From Bacteroidaceae bacterium (GTDB lineage Bacteria; Bacteroidota; Bacteroidia; Bacteroidales; Bacteroidaceae): a stretch of 38,384 bases of DNA. The position numbers were made by a program, and so were the translations under genes. Positions within the stretch are counted from its first letter, which is position 1; every line of letters starts with the position of its first letter. Shown here in pieces: positions 9,986-35,984 of the stretch. The stretch covers positions 1 to 38,384 of the forward strand of contig JAGCNZ010000043.1 of NCBI GenBank assembly GCA_017645655.1, written 5' to 3'. The notes beneath the pieces were generated by a model. The model saw only the letters and a program-made list of their open reading frames with translations, was not told the DNA's origin and ran no database searches.

Positions 9986-10078
9986 CACGTGGGTAAAATG
10001 AAATTATCACGTGTAATATTTCAAATATCACGTGGGTAAAATGAAAATATCACGTGTGATGATTTCAAACATCCCGTG
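9986..10078. repeat. CACGTG phased array 1
   Basis: Exact CACGTG copies start at 9986, 10008, 10029 and 10051, with a degenerate CCCGTG at 10073 (steps 22, 21, 22, 22). Spacers alternate between GGTAAAATGAAAATAT-type and TAATATTTCAAATAT-type. The array fills the 168-bp gap between prs (28 bp after its stop) and the PAP2 start (48 bp away), both minus strand. No other gene or clear TAnnTTTG box was seen in this gap. Confidence 0.9.
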
Positions 10079-10106
10079 CCGTGTTTCCCGACGCGACTGG
10101 GGAGGC

Positions 10107-11051
10107 TCAGCAGAGGTACTGCTTGGAGATGCTCTCGTTGTTCTCCACGCACTGTATCGTCTGCGCCAGCAGCGGGGCGATGGACAGCTGTTTCACCTTG
10201 CTGCAGTTGCCGGCGTAGGGGATGCTGTCGGTGAAGATCATCTCTTCGATGGCGGATGCTTCGACGCGCTCGTTGGCCGGACCGCTCATGATGCCGTGGC
10301 TGGCGATGGCACGTACGCTGCGGGCTCCGTTCTTCTTCATCAGGTCGGCAGCCTTCGTGATGGTGCCTGCCGTGTCGACCATATCGTCGATGAGGACGAC
10401 GTCGGCATCGAACACGTCGCCGATGATGTCCATGCTTGCCACTTCGTTTGCCTTCTTGCGGGTCTTGTTGCAGAGCACGAGGGGGCAGTTGAGGTACTTG
10501 CTGTAGGTGCTGGCACGCTTGGAACCGCCCACGTCGGGCGTTGCGATGACCAGGTTCTCGAGCTTCAGGCTCTGGATGTACGGCATCAGCACGCTGGAAG
10601 CGAACAGGTGGTCGACAGGCACATTGAAGAAGCCTTGCTCCTGGTCAGCATGAAGGTCCATCGTGATGAGGCGTGTGATGCCCGCCACGCCCAGCATGTC
10701 GGCCACGAGCTTGGCAGCGATGCTGACACGAGGCTTGCTCTTGCGGTCCTGACGTGCCCAGCCGAAATAGGGGACGACGGCATTGATGGTGCGAGCCGAA
10801 GCACGCTTCGCAGCATCTATCATCAGGAGCAGCTCCATCAGATTGTCTGCGTTGGGGAAAGTGCTCTGCACCAGGAAGACGTCCACACCGCGGATGGATT
10901 CCTCAAAGCAGACTTCGAACTCGCCGTCGCTGAAGTGCGTGATAGAAAGATTGCCCAGCTCGCAACCCAGCTGCTGGCATATCTTCTCTGCCAGATAAAG
11001 AGACTTGGTGCCCGAGAACACCTTGAATGACTTCGTTCCTTCCATTGTCAT
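10107..11051 (-). CDS. prs: Ribose-phosphate pyrophosphokinase
   Basis: Cytoplasmic PRPP synthase (EC 2.7.6.1) making 5-phosphoribosyl-1-diphosphate from ribose-5-phosphate and ATP for nucleotide, His and Trp synthesis. The class I signature is complete: KVFSGTKSLYLAEKI at the N-terminus, the flexible-loop region PYFGWARQDRKSKPR, TMDLHADQEQGFF in the ATP/Mg site, and the PRPP-binding loop DVVLIDDMVDTAGT. Length (314 aa) is typical. Two closely spaced starts, 11051 (MTMEG) and 11045 (MEG), are equally plausible; the longer reading frame upstream overlaps the ThiE-like gene and is not used. It lies 34 bp downstream of that gene and probably shares its promoter. Confidence 0.96.
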   Translation of the reverse strand: MTMEGTKSFKVFSGTKSLYLAEKICQQLGCELGNLSITHFSDGEFEVCFEESIRGVDVFLVQSTFPNADNLMELLLMIDAAKRASARTINAVVPYFGWARQDRKSKPRVSIAAKLVADMLGVAGITRLITMDLHADQEQGFFNVPVDHLFASSVLMPYIQSLKLENLVIATPDVGGSKRASTYSKYLNCPLVLCNKTRKKANEVASMDIIGDVFDADVVLIDDMVDTAGTITKAADLMKKNGARSVRAIASHGIMSGPANERVEASAIEEMIFTDSIPYAGNCSKVKQLSIAPLLAQTIQCVENNESISKQYLC

Positions 11052-11085
11052 ATGATCTGTTTGTTCTGAGTATTCGTTTTCGGCT

Positions 11086-11697
11086 TTAAGCGGAGGCAGC
11101 TTTCCTAAGCTTGCGGAAGTGAGCGATGAGCTCCTTGTAGTCGCGCTGCGAATGCACGTCGAAATGATTCCACAGGTCGCCTCTGATGGCAACACCGCCG
11201 AAGCCCAGCTCACGCACCTGCTCTATGTTGTCCAGGCACACGCCCCCCTCTGCAATCACATTGCGGTCGATGATGCCCTGGCGGGCAGCGGCAAGCAACT
11301 CGTCGGGCGTGAACGACGCTTTGTTCTCGCTTTCCGAGATACTGTCGAATATGTTGCGGAGCAACACATACTCGCACGCGGGCTTCTGCTCTACGACGCT
11401 CTGCAGGTCGTAGCACGTGCGAGTAATCGGCCCGCTATAGGAAGCAGGTGCCTCAGGATGCCTTTTGCTGAGATGTATGCCCATCAGTCCGAACTCGTCG
11501 CGCAGGTAGAAATGGTCGTGCACGACAACCTTGCTGCGATACTGCTCAGGCATGAGACTCAGCAAACGCTCACAGAAAACAGGCTCGGAATTGGGTTTGC
11601 GAAGGTGAAGAATGTCCAATCCTTCCTCGAAGAGCGTGGTCAGAATCTTGTCCTCTTCAACGAAGAACTCGGGGCAGGTGAGCAGAATAAGTTTCAT
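11086..11697 (-). CDS. Thiamine-phosphate synthase family protein (ThiE/TenI-like)
   Basis: A 203-residue TIM-barrel protein. LDILHLRKP, VVVHDHFYLRDEFGLMGIHLSKR and a C-terminal GFGGVAIRGDLW follow the ThiE/TenI pattern. ThiE couples HMP-PP and thiazole phosphate; TenI-type members are isomerases or orphan paralogues. The usual ThiE pyrophosphate-binding GGI..N..... segment is weak here: the fourth-quarter sequence reads IAEGGVCLDNIEQV. An orphan TenI-like role is therefore as likely as true thiamine synthesis. No other thi genes are nearby. Its own promoter with both -33 and -7 boxes lies just upstream, and prs follows in the same direction. Confidence 0.78.
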   Translation of the reverse strand: MKLILLTCPEFFVEEDKILTTLFEEGLDILHLRKPNSEPVFCERLLSLMPEQYRSKVVVHDHFYLRDEFGLMGIHLSKRHPEAPASYSGPITRTCYDLQSVVEQKPACEYVLLRNIFDSISESENKASFTPDELLAAARQGIIDRNVIAEGGVCLDNIEQVRELGFGGVAIRGDLWNHFDVHSQRDYKELIAHFRKLRKAASA

Positions 11698-11727
11698 TAC
11701 CTTTCTCTCTTGTCGTTAAAACTGTGT

Positions 11728-33985: not shown

Positions 33986-34073
33986 AAGTCTGCCGGCGTC
34001 GCTGCCCATCCGAGAACAGCGGACTTGCAGAAACGCCAACTCTAAACTCGTAAATTCAAACTCTATACTAATC

Positions 34074-34892
34074 ATGGGAGGTTATTTAGTAAGCGATACA
34101 CGCAAGGTGACGACACACCGTCTGATTGAAATGAAGGAGCAGGGGCAGCAGATAGCCATGCTCACTTCCTACGACTACACGATAGCACAGATTGTGGACC
34201 AGGCTGGCATCGACATCATCCTGGTGGGCGACAGCGCCAGCAACGTAATGGCGGGCAACATGACCACGCTGCCCATCACGCTCGACCAGATGATTTATCA
34301 TGCCCGCAGCGTGGTTCGGGGTGTGAAGAGGGCGCTCGTAGTGTGCGACATGCCATTCGGCACTTATCAGGTCAACGCGACAGAAGGCGTGAAGAACGCT
34401 ATCCGCATCATGCAGGAGAGCGGTTGCGACGCACTCAAACTCGAGGGAGGAGTGGAGATTCAGGACACCATCCGTGCCATCCTTGATGCAGGCATTCCTG
34501 TTATGGGACACCTCGGACTGACACCGCAGAGCATCAACAAGTTCGGCACCTATGCCGTCCGTGCCAAAGAAGAGGCAGAGGCCGCAAAGTTGCTCAGTGA
34601 TGCGAAGCTCCTCGACCAGCTTGGCTGCTTTGCCATCGTGCTGGAGAAGATACCTGCCGAACTGACGAGGAAGGTCTGCGAGCAGGTGGAGGTGCCTGTC
34701 ATTGGTATCGGAGCCGGGCAGGCAGACGGGCAGGTGCTGGTCGTTCATGATATGTTAGGCATGAACAAAGGCTTTTCCCCCAAGTTCCTTCGCCGTTATG
34801 CCGATCTTTCAACAATTATAACCGATGCCGTGGGTCAGTATGTCACCGACGTCAAGAACCGAGACTTCCCAAATGAAAACGAATCTTATTAA
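34074..34892 (+). CDS. panB: 3-methyl-2-oxobutanoate hydroxymethyltransferase
   Basis: Cytoplasmic ketopantoate hydroxymethyltransferase (EC 2.1.2.11), the first committed step of pantothenate/CoA synthesis, using methylene-tetrahydrofolate and 2-oxoisovalerate. Family blocks are all present: [38 protein letters not shown] (metal-binding Asp), [28 protein letters not shown] and [19 protein letters not shown]. Length (272 aa) is typical. No other pan genes are adjacent. Its last 20 nt overlap the start of a secreted GH43 gene in another frame, an unusual partnership. Array 4 lies 89 bp upstream of its start. Confidence 0.96.
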
Positions 34893-35835
34893 GGCACTTC
34901 TCGCCTTCTCACTCCTCATAGTCACAGGCACAATATCATGTGAAGCGACTCCTCTCCTCCTCACGGAAGGGGAAGGGAGAGGTGACGGCCTCCTTGTCAT
35001 CGACGCCGACGCACCCGACCCCACAGTCATTCGCATTGGTAAGACTTACTATGCGGCAGCCACGTCGGGCAACAAGCCGCATGCTTACCAGCGTTACCGC
35101 TCGAAGAACCTGAAGACTTGGGAGCCCATGGGTTTCATCTTCGATGAGTGGCCGGAATGGACAAGCGGCAGTTTCTGGGCACCTGAACTCTTTGAGCTCG
35201 ACGGAAAGATTATGTGTTACTATACCGCTCGGCAGAAGAGCGACAGCACGAGCTGCATCGGCGTGGCAATGGCTGAAGGTCCCGAAGGCAAGTTTGTCGA
35301 TTATGGCCCGCTCGTACGCACTACCAACGAGGCCATCGACGCCTTCGTCTTCCGCGATGGCGACCAGCTTTATATCACTTGGAAGGCTTATGGTCTTGAC
35401 CCCAGCAAGCGCCCCATAGAACTGCTTTGCCAGCGTCTCTCGAGCGATGGCCTGCATCTCGAGGGCGAGCCCTTCATGTTGCTTCGTGATGATGAAAGGC
35501 AGGGAATGGAGGGCCAATGTGTCTTCAAGGAAGGCGACTGGTGGTATCTCCTCTACAGCATCCGCGACTGTTGTTCGCCCCGGAGCGACTATGCAGTCAG
35601 CGTAGCACGTAGCCGCACCATACAAGGTCCGTGGGAGAAGTACGAAGGCAATCCAATCTTGGAAAGCACCGGCAATAAAATCCAGAGTTGTGGCCATGGA
35701 ACGATGGTCAAGACACCTAAGGGAGCGATGTACTACCTCTGCCATGCCTACTATTTCGACCGCTATGAGGAAGGCCGCAAAGCGGTTCTTTACCGCCTCA
35801 AGATAGGCAAAGACGGCTGGGTTCATCAGAAGTGA
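34873..35835 (+). CDS. Exported GH43-type glycosidase
   Basis: A 320-residue enzyme from the ATG at 34873; an in-frame ATG at 34825 lies inside panB and would put 16 polar residues before the signal sequence, so it is rejected. The signal sequence is [22 protein letters not shown], with Cys23 a marginal lipobox. The propeller has [11 protein letters not shown] (Asp49, likely base), the [11 protein letters not shown]sp and GMEGQCVF (likely acid Glu), which is the GH43 triad pattern. Substrate is probably an alpha-L-arabinofuranoside or beta-xyloside. Residues 26-40, between the signal and the first propeller strand, are encoded by a G/C-run hairpin and look inserted. It overlaps panB by 20 nt. 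Confidence 0.87.
34951..34982. repeat. Hairpin-like repeat in frame after the GH43 signal peptide
   Basis: CCTCTCC (34951-34957) pairs with GGAGAGG-type sequence at 34976-34982, and the interior TCCTC/GGGGA runs can extend the stem. It encodes [13 protein letters not shown]. The composition resembles the two GH20 insertions, but the arms are less perfect. Confidence 0.5.
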
Positions 35836-35913
35836 TAAGGTGCGACCCTTGTCTTTTTCTTCGAGCAGAAACATTTTCTCGCCCAACTTCACAGGTCCTG
35901 TTGACAAATCAGG

Positions 35914-35984
35914 CACGTGTGGTTTGAAATTTACCCACGTGATGTTTCAAATATTCCACGTGATAAAATGATTTTACCCACGTG
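35914..35984. repeat. CACGTG phased array 5 (opposite orientation)
   Basis: CACGTG starts at 35914, 35936, 35957 and 35979 (steps 22, 21, 22). Here the GGGTAAA spacer reads on the minus strand, opposite to arrays 1-3. A TTTGAAAT/ATTTCAAA-type pair flanks the copy at 35936. It begins 78 bp after the GH43 stop. Beyond it, 35985-36163 holds only a short TGCAC/GTGCA hairpin near 36023 and AT-rich promoter-like sequence. Confidence 0.9.

Follow-up and report, generated by a model that had tools for sequence, protein, structure and literature searches.

Intergenic 22-bp arrays in a rumen-type Prevotella relative suggest a repeat system in which spacing and symmetry count for more than sequence

What holds CACGTG hexamers in phase in five separate intergenic gaps of one bacterial contig? 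The gaps lie in a 38,384-nt stretch of a Bacteroidaceae draft genome (assembly GCA_017645655.1, contig JAGCNZ010000043.1; hereafter the window), for which a preliminary description had reported 22 exact hexamers spaced by 21–22 bp and had proposed selection for same-face protein binding. Direct reading of the sites returned the same total (4 + 5 + 6 + 3 + 4) and spacings of 22 and 21 bp (Table 1). The array of the convergent gap has two exceptions, a 24-bp spacing between 19849 and 19873 and a spacing of double length across the degenerate core at 19762. The degenerate cores were in phase and the gene contexts were as claimed. The whole window contains 27 exact CACGTG hexamers versus 11.9 expected, a count reached in 0 of 100 shuffles. 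The end of the convergent array is predicted to form a hairpin of approximately 20 bp (about 19843–19886), with CACGTG in each arm. Two lag-22 arrays of other families, absent from the preliminary description, also lie in the window.

Table 1 Arrays of approximately 22-bp units in the window and their surroundings
Feature	Position	Strand	Gap and neighbouring genes	Cores	Spacings (bp)
CACGTG array	9986..10078	+	Tandem; prs (10107-11213, -) and PAP2-like gene (8625-9938, -)	4 exact (9986-10056), CCCGTG at 10073	22, 21, 22, 22
CACGTG array	14925..15017	+	Tandem; GH43 gene (11865-14864) and gene 15055-15867	5 exact	22, 22, 21, 22
CACGTG array	19718..19878	+	Convergent, 3' of GH38 gene (15875-19705)	6 exact, degenerate TACGTG (19762) and CCCGTG	
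CACGTG array	33914..33985	-	Divergent, upstream of panB (34074-34892)	3 exact (33914-33963), CACGTT at 33980; linkers of older type	22, 22, 22
CACGTG array	35914..35984	-	Tandem, 3' of GH43 gene (ends 35835)	4 exact	22, 21, 22
Non-CACGTG lag-22 array	256..341	unassigned	Ahead of acyltransferase gene	Unit consensus near GCAACGTGCTGCGTTTGGGGAT	
Non-CACGTG lag-22 array	24976..25063	unassigned		GGACTCGAGTCC and CCACCGCGGTGG palindromes; dyad p 0.007	

The genome under study (G000) was read over 590 kb of its 2.74 Mb (22%), and related genomes (G050, G084, G091, G093 and others) over 40–204 kb each, with crude gene calls made for this analysis; one locus survey covered 80 of 109 loci and was run without filtering by gene. 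Within the 590 kb, 46 CACGTG arrays are dispersed, and nearest-neighbour spacings of up to 60 bp between hexamers were 22 bp (88), 21 bp (23), 24 bp (4), 20 bp (1) and 42–45 bp (16), with none of 23 bp. The whole draft genome holds 502 CACGTG-N15/16-CACGTG pairs versus 2 pairs of the reversed pattern, the genome-wide excess that the preliminary description had implied. A motif-blind scan of intergenic DNA, from which low-complexity stretches and regions lying at least 35% inside called genes were dropped and in which a single array may count as two regions, gave 1, 90 and 0 regions at lags of 20, 22 and 23 bp, and 15 at 21 bp, in the same 590 kb. Counts at lags of 20/22/23 bp in relatives were 0/19/0 (G050), 1/11/0 (G091), 0/14/0 (G093) and 3/24/1 (G084, with redone gene calls and some contigs containing N).

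The period is shared by units of differing sequence. CACGTG is lacking from 25 of the 90 lag-22 regions, and cores of 22-bp arrays in relatives include GGTTAACC, CCTATAGG, ACATGT, ACTAGT and ACCGGT. About seven unit groups without detectable mutual relation were found among the 22 of 71 clusters tested (134 of 183 units). Arrays are composed of approximately 3–8 units of 22 bp arranged head to tail, usually with a palindromic core and commonly with a further dyad at a distance of about 11 bp. A core palindrome of at least 6 bp occurs in 69% of 180 units versus 35% of shuffles; core palindromes were at or below shuffle level in G091, G103, G105 and G364, whole-unit dyad symmetry reached p < 0.05 in only 39 of the 180 units, and linker-centred complementarity was mixed (0.54 versus 0.46 shuffled at offset +2, 0.18 versus 0.24 at offset 0). 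Among the roles first listed, a non-autonomous repeat comes closest; a regulator that reads CACGTG would leave unexplained the arrays in which this period is carried by unrelated units, both here and in related species.

The CACGTG arrays of G000 are mostly copies of one layered, polar element, usually with one 21-bp unit each, and their linkers are common to units and to arrays. In 42 arrays of clear orientation that lie away from contig ends, a young unit type fills the middle and is bordered, in the same register, by older units that have decayed. Across 89 array ends, 30 have a core with two mismatches at precisely 22 bp beyond the last core, versus 0–8 per distance in a control region, so that spacing survives sequence decay, as had been argued; such cores also exceed the control at 17 bp (11 versus 3) and 29 bp (8 versus 3). 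The decayed units keep their core bases best (G in 36 of 42 at −17, C in 28 of 42 at −20), and conservation fades to almost nil beyond approximately 45 bp from the ends of the 42 arrays. Since most of these arrays are copies of a single element, their common phase in G000 gives no independent support for selected sites, and the step from phase to selected binding is not supported in the form first given; phasing of a single motif in a single genome does not in itself count as evidence of a binding site. Overall, the earlier interpretation is partly supported.

Orthologous gaps extend the comparison to other species. The gap beside prs carries a 22-bp array, of seven kinds, in 13 of 23 syntenic species and none in 10 of 23; of the 30 loci compared, one ran into a contig end and was dropped, and at six the neighbouring gene was another one or lay far off. 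Several called start codons at these loci are misplaced. The panB gap carries an array in 5 of 24 species, of four kinds, and 19 of 24 are without one. In a sister species, four of the five gaps orthologous to CACGTG arrays, a small sample, carry another unit family and one is empty; a CCTATAG-type 22-bp array occupies the stretch matching 256..341. At one gap in close species, the number of central ACTAGT cores is 2 (G053), 3 (G093) and 2 (G057), the copy-number variation that characterizes a minisatellite or VNTR. Some orthologous gaps carry 22-bp arrays whose unit family differs between species. The few gaps compared suggest that sites are retained and families exchanged in some of them.

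These arrays are tentatively best read, at somewhat below an even chance, as 22-bp repeats of a satellite-like class, scattered over intergenic sites, in which the register and some sites outlast the sequence. New unit variants would arise within an existing array and may spread to others through replication- and recombination-linked copying of hairpin-prone DNA, possibly by self-primed or template-switched synthesis followed by gene conversion between arrays, the copied variants displacing older units. If only in-register units were copied, period and symmetry would therefore outlast sequence. Any action of the element would probably be as double-stranded or cruciform DNA and not as a strand-specific RNA signal. 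We read the satellite-like copying, reconstructed from comparison of the arrays, as putative, and any host role as hypothetical. Against it, hairpin copying by itself predicts no single unit length, and CACGTG arrays in tandem gaps show an orientation bias (19 against gene direction, 6 along it and 2 ambiguous) that is unexpected for a neutral DNA repeat. A bolder form of the proposal, conceivable but rather unlikely, is an element defined by geometry, a 22-bp two-turn register with paired dyads, at whose fixed sites unrelated sequences enter and leave; the cellular ruler would be either an enzyme of copying or a protein of the chromosome that reads structure, and the whole a bacterial satellite system without a fixed sequence. 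Loss of the hairpin nuclease SbcD was considered as a permissive cause and rejected. Among the 139 genomes of the genus, 13 had an SbcD match over the cut-off, versus 56 of 121 sampled across the family (at least 7 of these 121 being of this genus), and in a smaller test 0 of 10 genus genomes had one. The pattern is suggestive only, as the array-bearing G141 and G181 do have a match over the cut-off and G237, which has no array in 40 kb, does not.

In an RNA-level alternative, the arrays would be transcribed as hairpins in the 3′ UTR and there terminate transcripts or shield the mRNA. Arrays in tandem gaps lie 46 bp from the upstream stop versus 137 bp from the downstream start (p 7e-5), which favours that alternative together with the orientation bias and with folding that beats shuffles, at a mean z of −2.3 to −3.3 across five genomes. 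Palindromic repeats fold by construction, and an RNA-level element appears improbable: both strands fold equally, the transcribed strand being more stable in only 22 of 47 arrays, and the only Rfam match in the window is 5S rRNA at 50–160. Terminator-like signals (hairpin plus T-run), scored with a crude detector, were no commoner with arrays than without them in G000 (convergent 5/20 versus 5/30, tandem 2/27 versus 10/85). With array length removed from the gaps, all lag-22 families in 17 genomes showed no gap-class preference (convergent 14/60, tandem 47/295, divergent 16/101); an apparent convergent enrichment of CACGTG arrays (10/22 convergent, 27/86 tandem, 5/43 divergent, with four arrays at edges unclassed and one overlapping a called gene) was not significant in this fuller test. 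The earlier view that the arrays cannot be taken simply as promoters or as terminators is borne out.

Loading by a nucleoid, boundary or partition-like protein that binds dyads two helical turns apart would generalize the initial proposal, with symmetry and spacing read more than sequence or with one binder per family. The sharp period, the in-phase decay and the retention of core bases in decayed units all fit it; 22 bp differs from 2 × 10.5 bp, however, and at 11 bp per turn strict same-face placement would, by arithmetic, drift over 5–7 units. A same-face binding protein may still be involved, but such loading seems unlikely given that several unrelated unit groups occur within one genome, that CACGTG pairs vary from 0 to 502 per genome over 139 genus genomes and that no candidate protein was found. 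It is extremely unlikely that the CACGTG arrays are parS-like loading sites for ParB. The parS consensus is TGTTTCACGTGAAACA-like and contains the CACGTG hexamer, and G000 has one ParB match, but only one of 266 CACGTG sites comes within three mismatches of parS outside the core. That site (L029:14419) has one mismatch and lies outside the arrays; 253 of the 266 are mismatched at 5–9 of 10 flank positions, and all but three of the 139 genus genomes (136) have ParB matches irrespective of pair count. The parS identity of the arrays was set aside on these flank mismatches. Descent of all families from one ancestral 22-bp array, similarity having been erased by concerted evolution and 22 bp being a frozen accident, agrees with the shared orthologous sites and with seven clusters that match a common unit in phase (14–22 of 22 positions, p 0.003–0.007, one being the reference type itself). 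It is nevertheless very unlikely: eight multi-copy clusters match that unit at only 8–10 of 22 positions (p 0.75–1.0), and when nine further units were compared pairwise, 33 of the 36 pairs showed no relation, a result that saturated divergence could also give. Little credence is given to an ordinary REP-like or MITE-like palindromic repeat, 22 bp long by chance and served by a transposase in trans, with the other families coincidental. The CACGTG arrays of G000 are indeed homologous copies, and a search of 17 draft genomes for RAYT (Y1_Tnp, PF01797) gave matches in six, including array-bearing G016 and G112; G000 and ten others, array-rich drafts among them, gave none, sequence past about 45 bp is scantly conserved, no terminal repeats lie outside the array, and coincidence fails for a period common to about seven groups.

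If the satellite-like reading is true, period and sites are kept while letters change, so sequence-based repeat finders would miss the element and every species would seem to own a private repeat. The layered turnover of arrays could then be studied in a tractable bacterial model, and so sharp a preference for 22 bp would point to an enzyme or DNA-bound protein measuring two helical turns. Eukaryotic satellite arrays likewise expand in layers, with young units central and decayed ones at the edges, and turn over in concert at fixed places; here, by contrast, 3–8 units occupy many bacterial intergenic sites, and no centromere role is implied. Plasmid iterons are repeats of approximately 20–22 bp at one origin, next to a rep gene, an identity contradicted by the spread of the 46 CACGTG arrays over 590 kb; CRISPR is contradicted by the shared linkers, which are not unique spacers.

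REP, BIME and REPIN elements are described as short intergenic palindromes with many copies, several types per genome and a RAYT (TnpAREP) transposase, BIMEs having sometimes regular spacing and alternating orientation (PMC2817692, PMC3733652, PMC6006769). The present arrays are also intergenic, palindromic and high-copy, but have a fixed 22-bp head-to-tail period common to unrelated units, and different families occupy one site in different species; a RAYT-driven REP identity was set aside, as Y1_Tnp was not found in G000, a draft in which absence is not proof. BrickBuilt of Porphyromonas gingivalis is presented as a MITE with an internal minisatellite of 23-nt units, in 19 copies and one species pair, with a leader and a tail bearing IS5-like terminal inverted repeats; 22-nt direct repeats noted earlier in strain W83 are mentioned in the same paper (PMC4596501). 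As presented, it too is intergenic, belongs to Bacteroidales and has dyad-rich tandem units of near-equal length, whereas the arrays here have a 22-bp unit, many families and no leader, tail or conserved ends, and no conserved terminal inverted repeats, a MITE hallmark, surround the 42 arrays. PINSR, reported as a 188-bp intergenic repeat with 177–184 copies in Prevotella intermedia and relatives, without terminal inverted repeats and with about three-quarters of sites common to strains (PMC4755523), shares the Prevotella lineage, intergenic position and lack of such ends; as described, a single 188-bp sequence, it differs from the 22-bp arrays. Palindromic candidate RNAs in Bacteroidetes are given mostly as predicted terminators (PMC8040213). 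A full-text literature search, with most subscription journals outside its coverage, found no description of this 22-bp array class. TAACTGA and other heptamer direct repeats, some in Bacteroidetes, are reported as dispersed, intergenic and tandem (PMC4679880); the TAACTGA type is a fixed 7-bp sequence near start codons, in contrast to the 22-bp unit described here. A separate period-7 repeat class is also present in this genus.

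The five intergenic CACGTG arrays of the window, with the 22 exact sites counted in the preliminary description, were all present when the sequence was read directly. The genome-wide count of phased pairs proposed there gave 502 occurrences of CACGTG-N15/16-CACGTG over the entire draft assembly (2.74 Mb in 130 contigs, 84% complete), against 2 for the reversed pattern. Nearest CACGTG spacings of up to 60 bp in the 590 kb of this genome that were read were 22 bp (88), 21 bp (23), 24 bp (4), 20 bp (1) and 42–45 bp (16), with none at 23 bp. The reversed control, GTGCAC-N15/16-GTGCAC, is itself frequent in three genomes from other genera of the family (34, 40 and 49 in G181, G218 and G255). 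The 5S rRNA gene lies at the very start of the window, which therefore begins at the end of an rRNA operon.

Coordinates of the arrays and of neighbouring features (window positions unless a locus is named)
Feature	Position	Detail
CACGTG array	9986–10078	in the tandem prs gap
CACGTG array	14925–15017	
CACGTG array	19718–19878	
CACGTG array	33914–33985	in the divergent panB gap
CACGTG array	35914–35984	
5S rRNA gene	50–160	Rfam RF00001, 82 bits
TGTCGTC-type repeat	22112–22167	7/14/21-bp repeat within the GH127-like gene
GH127-like gene	22025–25045	
Near-canonical parS	L029:14419–14434	on contig C11 of G000, one mismatch from the parS consensus

Phased CACGTG triples occur in at least 109 stretches of named genomes. 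Among the 80 listed, 44 are titled Bacteroidales or a genus thereof, all of them drafts and many assembled as MAGs from rumen or gut; because the array-bearing MAGs come from several projects, a single assembly artefact is unlikely. With the selected array excluded and genes unfiltered, these 44 loci held ten regions at lag 22, three at lag 23, one at lag 17 and none at lags 19, 20, 25 or 26; in the other 36, likewise with genes unfiltered, lag 22 had three regions, and lags 20, 23 and 25 had a single one each.

The period extends beyond this motif. A motif-blind intergenic scan, requiring 25 or more identical positions out of 40 at the lag, found regions at lags 20/22/23 in numbers of 1/90/0 in this genome (G000), 3/24/1 in 204 kb of its sister species G084, and 0/19/0 (G050), 1/11/0 (G091), 0/14/0 (G093), 0/3/0 (G103), 0/6/0 (G011) and 0/3/0 (G105) in other relatives. 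Genomes from other genera of the family, at 36–40 kb each, gave 0/4/0 (g4, g19), 0/3/0 (g21), 0/2/0 (g30, g22) and 0/1/2 (g14), with no lag-22 region in g3, g9, g15 or g24; the same scan of 50 kb of E. coli found none. Lag-21 regions (15 in G000, 5 in G011, 4 in G105) are in part due to a distinct period-7 class with lags of 14, 21 and 28, the second type of array in this genus.

Units of the 22-bp class are diverse. CACGTG is missing from 25 of the 90 lag-22 regions of this genome; some of these have the related core AACGTG, and others have TCATGA/CAATTG, ACATGT/CAATTG, CTCGAG/CCGCGG or GCGGCCGC/GAATTC units. Relatives carry, among others, ACTAGT (G053, G093), GGTTAACC (G050), ACCGGT (G011) and CCTATAGG (G084). 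The 183 unit consensuses formed 71 clusters, 22 of which were tested for relatedness: seven agree in phase with the common unit CACACGTGAAGTTTGCAAACTT (14–22 of 22 positions, p 0.003–0.007), one being the reference type itself, and eight multi-copy clusters do not (GGTTAACC, CCAGT, two ACATGT types, CCTATAGG, TCATGA, GCGGCCGC and ACGACCG; 8–10 of 22, p 0.75–1.0). Pairing these eight and the AATAAG unit of G037 gave 3 related pairs of 36 (among the ACATGT types, TCATGA and AATAAG) and no relation in the remaining 33. This leaves some seven groups with no detectable relation to one another, four or more of which are present in this genome; they may have diverged too far to be recognised as related. 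Symmetry of the units is common, not universal: 69% of 180 units have a palindromic core of 6 bp or longer, compared with 35% for shuffles, and with this genome left out 42% of 90 units have one of 8 bp or longer, compared with 10%. Dyad symmetry over the full unit reaches significance (p<0.05) in 39 of 180, and 6-bp cores do not exceed shuffles in G091, G103, G105 or G364 taken alone.

The strings of sites that make up the CACGTG arrays of this genome are not independent of one another. A common plan recurs in many of the 28 compared: 22-bp units joined by a GGTAAAATGAAATTAT-type linker, then in most cases a single 21-bp unit (TAATATTTCAAATAT, GAATATTT... or the like), then more 22-bp units. 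Alignment of the ends of 42 oriented arrays showed outer linkers of an older type (AAAC-R-T ahead of the first core, GTTT behind the last), decayed cores in phase one unit outward and more weakly two units outward, and little conservation past about 45 bp. The preliminary description held that spacing is kept where sequence degenerates, and this is borne out: outside 89 array ends, two-mismatch cores lie exactly 22 bp out at 30, 20 bp at 9, 21 bp at 1 and 23 bp at 0, against 0–8 at any one distance in a control stretch lying another 150 bp outward, and they also exceed the control at 17 bp (11 versus 3) and 29 bp (8 versus 3). Further out, a second core (two mismatches allowed, without a control) is commonest at 44 bp (20), followed by 42 bp (12) and 46 bp (8). 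A young unit type therefore lies within an older array, whose register is largely kept as its letters decay.

Orthologous gaps were compared for retention of the phase, as had been suggested. The gene pair of prs and the next (PAP2-like) gene is kept in 23 of 30 species; 13 of the 23 have a 22-bp array in the gap and 10 have none. The arrays are of seven kinds (CACGTG in G000; CCAGT in G084, G112 and G090; CGCCGCACGCGG in G016 and G091; ACTAGT in G053, G057 and G093; AATAAG in G037; AAGTT-CACACGTT in G032; GGTTAACC in G024 and G050), or four groups by unit comparison, with G032 assigned by eye. The divergent gap upstream of panB holds a 22-bp array in 5 of 24 genomes, of four kinds, and none in 19, the sister species included. 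G084 has a mean DNA identity of 82% to this genome where aligned; four of its five orthologues of CACGTG-array gaps contain a 22-bp array from a different family, in one case the older CACGTG-related group, and the fifth has no such array. Among nine mappable gaps of at least 100 bp, arrays were present in both species in four, in G000 only in one, in G084 only in none and in neither in four (Fisher p 0.048); over all gaps of this size in G084, arrays occur in 15 of 54. Near the start of the window a sixth stretch, not counted among these gaps, has different 22-bp families in the two species. Some orthologous gaps keep 22-bp arrays of changed sequence; the numbers are small, and this is the claim most in need of further data. 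The prs gaps of G007 (L116), G102 (L111) and G031 (L112, at a contig end) have, in place of a 22-bp array, inverted 7-bp tandem repeats of CATAATT type that form a long hairpin, G007 and G102 being two of the ten prs gaps with none; in the same three genomes the best repeat lag upstream of panB is 23 bp (L319, L316 and L318; scores 38, 39 and 26 of 40).

With array length subtracted, the gap classes of 17 genomes do not differ significantly in how often they carry a lag-22 array (convergent 14 of 60, tandem 47 of 295, divergent 16 of 101). Within the 47 tandem gaps the median distance of the array is 46 bp to the stop codon and 137 bp to the start codon (p 7e-5). CACGTG arrays in tandem gaps run against the genes' direction in 19 cases and with it in 6 (2 ambiguous). 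In five genomes the arrays fold better than shuffled sequence, with mean z between −2.3 and −3.3, as palindromic repeats must; predicted folding is the same for the transcribed and opposite strands. Gap class, stop and start distances and strand-equal folding together favour a DNA-level or neutral element avoiding promoters over an RNA signal.

The CACGTG family of the preliminary description is thus real, and is only one family of a wider, well-supported 22-bp class. A CACGTG-binding regulator, also proposed there, does not fit because the unit families are so diverse. We infer the mechanism, and tentatively prefer, at somewhat short of even chances, a satellite-like class in which the register, and the location of some arrays, persist longer than the sequence; the cell's own replication and recombination would copy and homogenise the units. 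The main rival, a DNA-binding protein that reads the spacing, we consider rather unlikely. Compared by description, so far as their sources could be consulted, BrickBuilt and PINSR are the nearest Bacteroidales repeats found, and both differ from the 22-bp arrays. Conserved MITE ends are absent from 42 CACGTG arrays, and no RAYT was found in this genome and ten others of the 17. ParB/parS sites were likewise rejected, the sole near-canonical parS in the sequence read lying outside the arrays; it is probably the true ParB site of this chromosome. The hairpin nuclease SbcD scored over the cut-off in 13 of 139 genomes of the genus against 56 of 121 sampled across the family, and its scarcity is a possible permissive factor for palindromes.
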